A stretch of DNA of 64,000 nt, from the NCBI GenBank assembly GCA_003280915.1, contig QCDL01000001.1, forward strand, positions 62,001-126,000, written 5' to 3'. The notes under the pieces are model-generated. The model did no database searches, was not told where the DNA came from, and saw only the letters and a program-made list of their open reading frames with translations. This document shows positions 48,083 through 48,499 of the stretch, piece by piece (the first letter of the stretch is position 1; every line of letters begins with the position of its first letter). The translations under genes and the position numbers were made by a program. This DNA comes from Prochlorococcus sp. AG-355-I04. Its GTDB lineage: Bacteria; Cyanobacteriota; Cyanobacteriia; PCC-6307; Cyanobiaceae.

Positions 48083-48370
48083 AGTTTCCAGAATGGTGTA
48101 ATAGTCCAAACAATATCAACAAAAAGATATCTTAATTTTAAAAAATGAAAATCAATCAAAGAACTTATTTTTTTTTCATTTTTATGGAGAATTTAATAAA
48201 TGTTCTAATTACTGTTCTTAAAAAACATTTTTTTAATTTTTAAACATTATTTAAAACCAAATGTTTAAATATTTTATATGTTCTATATACTGTTCTTAAT
48301 ATTGTATCAAATATACTTGATTTTATTTTCGGCAAACTACTCTTTGACAAAAAAAGAGGTCTAAGAAATA
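48083..48370. other. Non-coding region with two 22-bp near-repeats and an inverted repeat
   Basis: Two copies of a 22-bp element, at 48200-48221 and 48278-48299, agree at 20 of 22 positions. Each contains tgttct twice with a 12-bp period. Between them is a perfect 8-bp inverted repeat, taaacatt (48241-48248) and aatgttta (48260-48267), with an 11-base loop. No credible gene is present; an open frame crossing it runs through the tRNA. It lies between convergent transcription units (the gene ending at 48082 and tRNA-Asn). Confidence 0.6.
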
Positions 48371-48395
48371 AAAAAGTCACCTTTTTAGGGTGACT
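48370..48395 (-). terminator. Rho-independent terminator of tRNA-Asn
   Basis: On the minus strand agtcacc, a 7-base loop and ggtgact form a 7-bp stem (48375-48395), followed directly by a run of T. This is 26 bp past the tRNA 3' end, the right position and strand for its terminator. It is the clearest intrinsic terminator I noticed in the window. Confidence 0.75.
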
Positions 48396-48421
48396 GTGGA
48401 TAACTTTTCGGTACCTATAAA

Positions 48422-48493
<72 letters not shown>

Positions 48494-48499
48494 ATATAA

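Follow-up and report, generated by a model that had tools for sequence, protein, structure and literature searches.

The gene-free interval between a DUF7326 gene and a tRNA-Asn gene in the analysed stretch of Prochlorococcus DNA (64,000 nucleotides, here called the window, from a genome of 1.56 Mb in 52 contigs) contains two conserved elements at a conserved spacing, each a head-to-tail pair of 12-bp units, and a related unit is found in some genomes between lipA and a gene for a small serine-resolvase-like protein. We consider it fairly likely that the stretch is a remote, res-like candidate double site of this protein, which would then be a domesticated serine resolvase. Features are collected in Table 1.

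Table 1. Features of the element locus (window positions) and position of the resolvase-like gene in the source genome
Feature	Position	Strand	Remarks
Gene-free interval with element pair	48083..48420	.	338 bases, from DUF7326 to tRNA-Asn
Element 1, head-to-tail pair of 12-bp units	48200..48221	+	TGTTCT at 48201-48206 and 48213-48218
Spacer	48222..48277	.	length conserved, sequence not; contains non-conserved inverted repeat
Element 2, head-to-tail pair of 12-bp units	48278..48299	+	TGTTCT at 48279-48284 and 48291-48296
DUF7326 gene, 119 aa	47723..48082	+	PF24012, 66.8 bits vs cut-off 27
tRNA-Asn(gtt), facing the pair	48421..48494	-	Rfam match
Terminator-like stem-loop of the tRNA unit	48375..48395	-	predicted
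OmpR-family response regulator (rpaA-like), which we take to be rpaA	46537..47328	-	Response_reg and Trans_reg_C
Resolvase-like gene, copy of the source genome	G000:C10:40240-40860		outside the window

Of the 22 positions of the two elements 20 are identical, and TGTTCT occurs twice in each element at a 12-bp offset; this observation of the initial annotation was confirmed by reading and by shuffling. Dinucleotide shuffling of the 339-bp stretch (300 rounds) gave 22-mer self-matches of at most 18 positions (20 was reached in 0/300), and in 2000 shuffles two copies of TGTTCT-N6-TGTTCT were found in none and one copy in two. The repeat between the elements could be extended to 32 nt at 81%. An inverted repeat with an 11-base loop had also been reported between the elements; it is real, with perfect arms of 10 bp (48239-48248 and 48260-48269) rather than 8 bp, is scored by the repeat search as 14 nt at 93%, and was not conserved in the aligned relatives. 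When the source genome was searched for the repeat, the strong copies were the two window elements and looser forms were not above control. At up to three mismatches the 20-mer gave four matches, as did the control, the mismatch-free ones being elements 1 and 2 only; the profile search returned the elements at E 3.1e-6 and 2.3e-5, with the next best match at 0.15; and the loose TGTTCT-N6-TGTTCT (up to two mismatches) was not enriched (368 matches vs 408 for the reversed control), so a genome-wide regulon of this motif was not supported.

DUF7326 was present in 32/60 sampled genomes, all from the genus Prochlorococcus (g1; 32/37 of its genomes). Thirty loci including that of the window were fetched by DUF7326, and the 29 with at least 250 bases downstream served as the unbiased sample: fetched without the motif, 20 of them carried both elements downstream of DUF7326 and nine lacked the pair. 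Overall the pair was found in 99/110 unique loci, a biased figure because loci L062 and above were mostly motif-fetched. The 18-mer (up to one mismatch) occurred in 124/200 genomes of the genus, the reversed control giving 8 matches in 7 genomes. Element starts were 77–81 bp apart in 89 of the 99 pairs (quartiles 78–80); the other ten distances were 69 (two), 75, 76, 82 (two), 89, 90, 91 and 93 bp, those of 90 and 93 being due to extra units. The distance from the DUF7326 stop to the elements had quartiles of 110–116. Mean major-base frequency was 0.94 and 0.95 in the two 18-bp cores, 0.81–0.87 in the six bases 3' of each core and 0.56–0.71 in spacer and flanks. In three loci a third unit stood at exactly 12 bp, which identifies the element as a 12-bp direct repeat and not as one 22-bp word. 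The elements are thus conserved footprints, and the initial description of pairs that look like protein sites, oddly placed between converging units, was borne out; the refuting condition named there, absence of the element from relatives, does not hold, as relatives carry it.

Arrays of the unit were also seen at other places. The record of the cultured strain MIT 9314 (L130) has the array as well. Seven genomes share a further array locus (L253:3485, L254:4209, L255:3985, L256:4106, L257:4046, L258:3961, L259:4014) with two units in five of them and three in G025 and G129, and an unknown 96-aa ORF lies upstream of this array in 5/7. G022 has two three-unit arrays 50 bp apart (L251:4069-4148) in a gene-poor stretch ~1 kb downstream of a gene that is presumably metK-like. 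The viral contigs L218, L235 and L241 have one region in common, with three TGTTCT at 12-bp offsets. In 40 viral contigs with the pattern no DUF7326, ABC gene or rpaA was found within the examined stretch, and the non-Prochlorococcus contigs among the matches listed had no DUF7326 and, in a few cases, distant rpaA or ABC matches; pattern matches in both kinds of contig were taken as chance.

DUF7326 is a neighbour of the pair and not essential to it, for a genome of genus g63 (G312) carries the pair without DUF7326. The g1 genome G031 has its two arrays, one of them with three units, on the side of tRNA-Asn at a distance of ~133 bp, not 79 bp, and its DUF7326 is ~4.5 kb away; on these two grounds a tie of the element to DUF7326 was rejected. 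The predicted fold of the DUF7326 protein (AlphaFold) is all helical with a mean pLDDT of 67. A phage link of this protein was also dismissed, because tblastn gave no match at 1e-5 among 50,697 phage records and PHROGs gave only weak matches (0.003–0.007) of unknown function. On the other side of the interval, the full tRNA adjoins in 44 of the 99 pair-bearing loci with its 3' end (48421 in the window), a short remnant of the tRNA end is followed by other DNA in 23, no tRNA end lies within the stretch in 31 and one locus is cut. The tRNA-Asn 3' end resembles an insertion place of islands (e.g. L035, L036, L043, L081, L091); that the pair is a factor needed for such islands was not supported, because a tRNA-end remnant is present in G008, where the pair is lacking.

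The resolvase-like gene was found in 31/37 g1 genomes, many of them incomplete, at E ≤2.2e-79 and in 22/22 near-complete ones, and lies ~0.33–0.35 Mb from the window locus in three single-contig relatives. Two pairs upstream of it, at about -155 and -129 and thus 26 bp apart, are oriented opposite to the gene, and a further pair at about -62 has the direction of the gene. A matrix built from window-locus elements only exceeded the 95th percentile of pooled shuffles in 52/52 upstream regions of the resolvase-like gene (mean 17.2 vs 1.1; of 53 selected loci L292 was left out, its upstream region being other, coding-like sequence) and in 0/28 control regions upstream of DUF7326. The best site was not above the maximum of the region's own shuffles in 7/52 upstream regions (one a tie), and in the source genome the site is weak, scoring 9.1 where its own 60 shuffles reached 12.5. 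Of 28 genomes examined by the profile search, 13 gave a match upstream of the resolvase-like gene, ten of them placed by coordinates (G268, G271, G160, G002, G130, G241, G024, G207, G228, G115) and three by tblastn (G064, G143, G205). The search also returned strong arrays from other places in G022, G025 and G129 and some eight further matches near chance level (E 0.008–0.095), and no match at E 0.1 in G015 and G242, though both have the gene. Since the underlying alignment (A1, 50 sequences) includes one resolvase-upstream sequence (L252) and two from G022, this search is slightly circular, and the matrix test repeats it with window-locus elements only. Directly 3' of the resolvase-like gene a conserved ORF of 70 aa was seen (L271:1284-1496; 73–90% identity, two distant copies), without an NCBIfam match and, for the G136 copy, without a Pfam match.

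The G136 copy of the resolvase-like protein matched PF00239 at 1.4e-16 (61.3 bits vs cut-off 23.3) and HTH_7 at 0.0016, below the cut-off (18.9 vs 23.8 bits). Against the PDB the copy of the source genome gave resolvase/invertase chains down to 5.9e-13, and the matches of the protein were chains of DNA invertases, Sin, Tn3 and gamma-delta resolvase; these similarities place it in the small serine resolvase family. In the alignment of 47 proteins of the genus the column of the nucleophile serine holds T in 27, I in 15, S in four and A in one. Of two further catalytic columns, which we take to be those of R45 and R71, the former is K in 47/47 and the latter K in 34, S in 11, A in one and R in one; the YAR and LDR arginines are present in 47/47. 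The combination of catalytic serine and arginines of an active enzyme was not found in the 47 genus proteins; 8/10 sister-genus homologues keep all these residues. The C-terminal HTH, of which the C-terminal block was seen, is nearly invariant within the genus, and in a tree the 47 proteins form one group (100/98), with long-branch warnings for two rows from other genera. As four proteins keep the serine, one has the R71-like arginine and all have the YAR and LDR arginines, loss of activity is something that we infer: the resolvase is probably catalytically dead and would have been retained for DNA binding, not recombination. Recombination by the protein, for instance in chromosome dimer resolution, was set aside because of the changed catalytic residues.

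Related sites were also found outside the genus. Summed over the upstream 300 bp of ten sister-genus homologues, TGTTC/GAACA occurred 30 times (8.8 expected, shuffle maximum 18); L326 and L329 had none upstream, and L327 and L328 showed no excess. A same-orientation TGTTC pair 79–82 bp apart, resembling the spacing of the window elements, was present in 9/14 sister-genus homologue loci, these 14 having been picked from 34 (two places twice) after half-sites or catalytic residues had been seen. By reading, the sister-genus sites differ from the window elements in being TGTTCC-like with the second half at 13–14 bp instead of 12 bp; several of the nine loci have an additional inverted GGAACA closer to the gene, and eight of the nine homologues have the catalytic serine. 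Upstream of the homologues in L412, L413, L415-L418 and L322 the layout was TGTTC, ~80 bp, TGTTC, ~60 bp, GGAACA; the repeated sister-genus layout possibly represents the res sites of those resolvases. In genus g41 unit arrays lie beside divergent resolvase homologues in 2/4 genomes: upstream of the gene in G284, where AGAACA stands three times at 12 bp, and as a pair adjoining the gene in G289; the remaining two genomes gave no pattern match. G312 (g63) has a perfect core preceded at 80 bp by a weaker core; the two lie between tRNA-Asn and an rpaA of 83% identity, DUF7326 gave no match within the 3-kb locus, and this genome also encodes resolvase homologues. Pattern matches in G057, G041, G304 and G293 were near neither gene.

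The best-fitting precedent is the Sin system, with which the window locus shares head-to-tail half-sites, a (here presumed) serine-recombinase partner and two sites a short distance apart. As described in the available part of PMC2428073, the Sin dimer at the head-to-tail site II is catalytically inactive and pairs two sites via the DNA-binding domains, and HU bends the spacer (PMC2428073 and PMC2764113, each as available in part). By analogy, each window element could be taken by one dimer on its 12-bp half-sites, and two dimers ~79 bp apart in the same orientation could pair with each other, perhaps with the help of HU; this pairing would put a bend into the interval towards which DUF7326 and tRNA-Asn converge. 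The same protein would set its own level by acting on the related sites, most of them weaker, that precede its gene. No strand exchange would be expected, since the column of the nucleophile serine and two columns of catalytic arginines are changed. The arrangement differs from Sin in that the site is far from the gene and the catalytic columns of the presumed partner are changed; by eye no inverted crossover site I was recognised in the aligned stretch of the element locus. With Tn3 and gamma-delta res the locus shares several (here predicted) recombinase subsites and the presence of related sites upstream of the recombinase gene, whereas Tn3-type regulatory subsites, as far as the partly available sources describe them, are inverted repeats and the window elements are direct repeats with a remote copy. 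The output would probably be local: transcription could be insulated or blocked within the gap, or local DNA structure could be set. The stretch may also be a regulator sink or a chromosome-structure site, as the initial annotation suggested.

In a further version the dead resolvase, with catalysis lost and pairing retained, would serve as a chromosome tether clamped on two fixed places, the region of its own gene and the gap between rpaA and tRNA-Asn, and would thereby bridge the origin region. In G022, G064 and G015, where a gene near the contig start is presumably dnaN, the DUF7326/element locus lies at 125–142 kb and the resolvase-like gene ~200–210 kb before the contig end. This version is weakened by the absence of the pair at DUF7326 in G022 and G015, only G064 of the three having it, and we regard it as quite unlikely; that the two loci pair with each other is a possibility of a speculative kind. 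If true, it would mean a sequence-specific bridge of the origin region in Prochlorococcus made from a transposon-type enzyme.

A different transcription factor might instead bind at both places and control the resolvase-like gene together with the window locus, the resolvase itself not being the binder. The degenerate own-gene sites of the source genome would suit this reading, but the unit recurs beside the divergent g41 homologues and TGTTC upstream of several sister-genus homologues, so the other factor would have to follow the resolvase gene family, and the reading appears rather unlikely. A box in the HLR1 sense for the neighbouring OmpR-family regulator or for RpaB would agree with the distance of only ~0.9 kb between the rpaA-like gene, which scores below the cut-off of the NCBIfam RpaB model (206 vs 330 bits), and the pair, and with the direct repeats that are usual for OmpR-family regulators. 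HLR1 is likewise a direct-repeat element in cyanobacteria; in the available part of PMC9241938 it is given as (G/T)TTACA(T/A)(T/A) twice with 2 nt between, hence a period of 10 bp, so that the initial annotation was wrong in equating its spacing with the 12 bp found here and right in calling the core different (TGTTCT vs (G/T)TTACA). As period and core differ, and as the other recurrent place of the unit is the resolvase-like gene, the proposed RpaB/HLR1 analogy was given up; with 0/28 matrix hits upstream of DUF7326 and strong sites at few loci per genome, unlike those of a global regulator, binding by either regulator is improbable. The cyanobacterial LexA box has a palindromic consensus, whereas the window half-sites are direct and not inverted.

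It is similarly improbable that the pair is a relic, in the sense that an old tRNA-Asn island left part of a res site without present function: tRNA-end remnants followed by other DNA in 23/99 loci do mark a busy insertion place, and similarly spaced sites exist at sister-genus resolvase genes, but a core frequency of 0.94–0.95 against 0.56–0.71 around it and the fixed spacing speak for present selection. An sRNA gene, a promoter or an element of the DUF7326 mRNA 3'-UTR acting as RNA could be read from a gene-free stretch that is bounded by a terminator-like stem and has a -10-like TATACT with a weak -35 at element 2. Against such readings, several relatives have TTTACT or AATACT in place of the -10-like word, the g63 pair has no DUF7326 beside it and the unit also stands upstream of another gene. 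The sRNA gene considered in the initial annotation found no support, as only the tRNA reached the gathering score of an Rfam model in the window and folding z-scores were -1.24 (+) and +0.73 (-); we give these readings very little weight. That the repeats arose by chance in AT-rich DNA would accord with the lack of genome-wide enrichment of loose matches, but this is extremely unlikely given the shuffles (0/300 and 0/2000) and is already refuted by the conservation.

Small resolvases, sites beside resolvase genes and a head-to-tail site II are already known. Among the open-licence papers listed, no account of the resolvase-like protein or of its predicted sites was found; PMM0128/PMM0129 are not named in the main text of PMC2518516 or PMC7368042, and 'resolvase' in PMC2921402 means RuvC. 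On the reading as a candidate double site of the resolvase-like protein, a near-universal recombinase-like protein with catalytic changes, an almost frozen DNA-binding domain and few predicted targets per genome would be an unusual domestication, and a conserved non-coding stretch without an annotated gene would gain a function. Prochlorococcus is a very abundant ocean microbe with few regulators, and to our knowledge its chromosome organisation is poorly known; prediction of dif failed for the cyanobacteria according to the available part of PMC3025954. Judged from sequence comparison, the findings point to a DNA-binding control or chromosome-shaping system in Prochlorococcus for which we found no earlier description.
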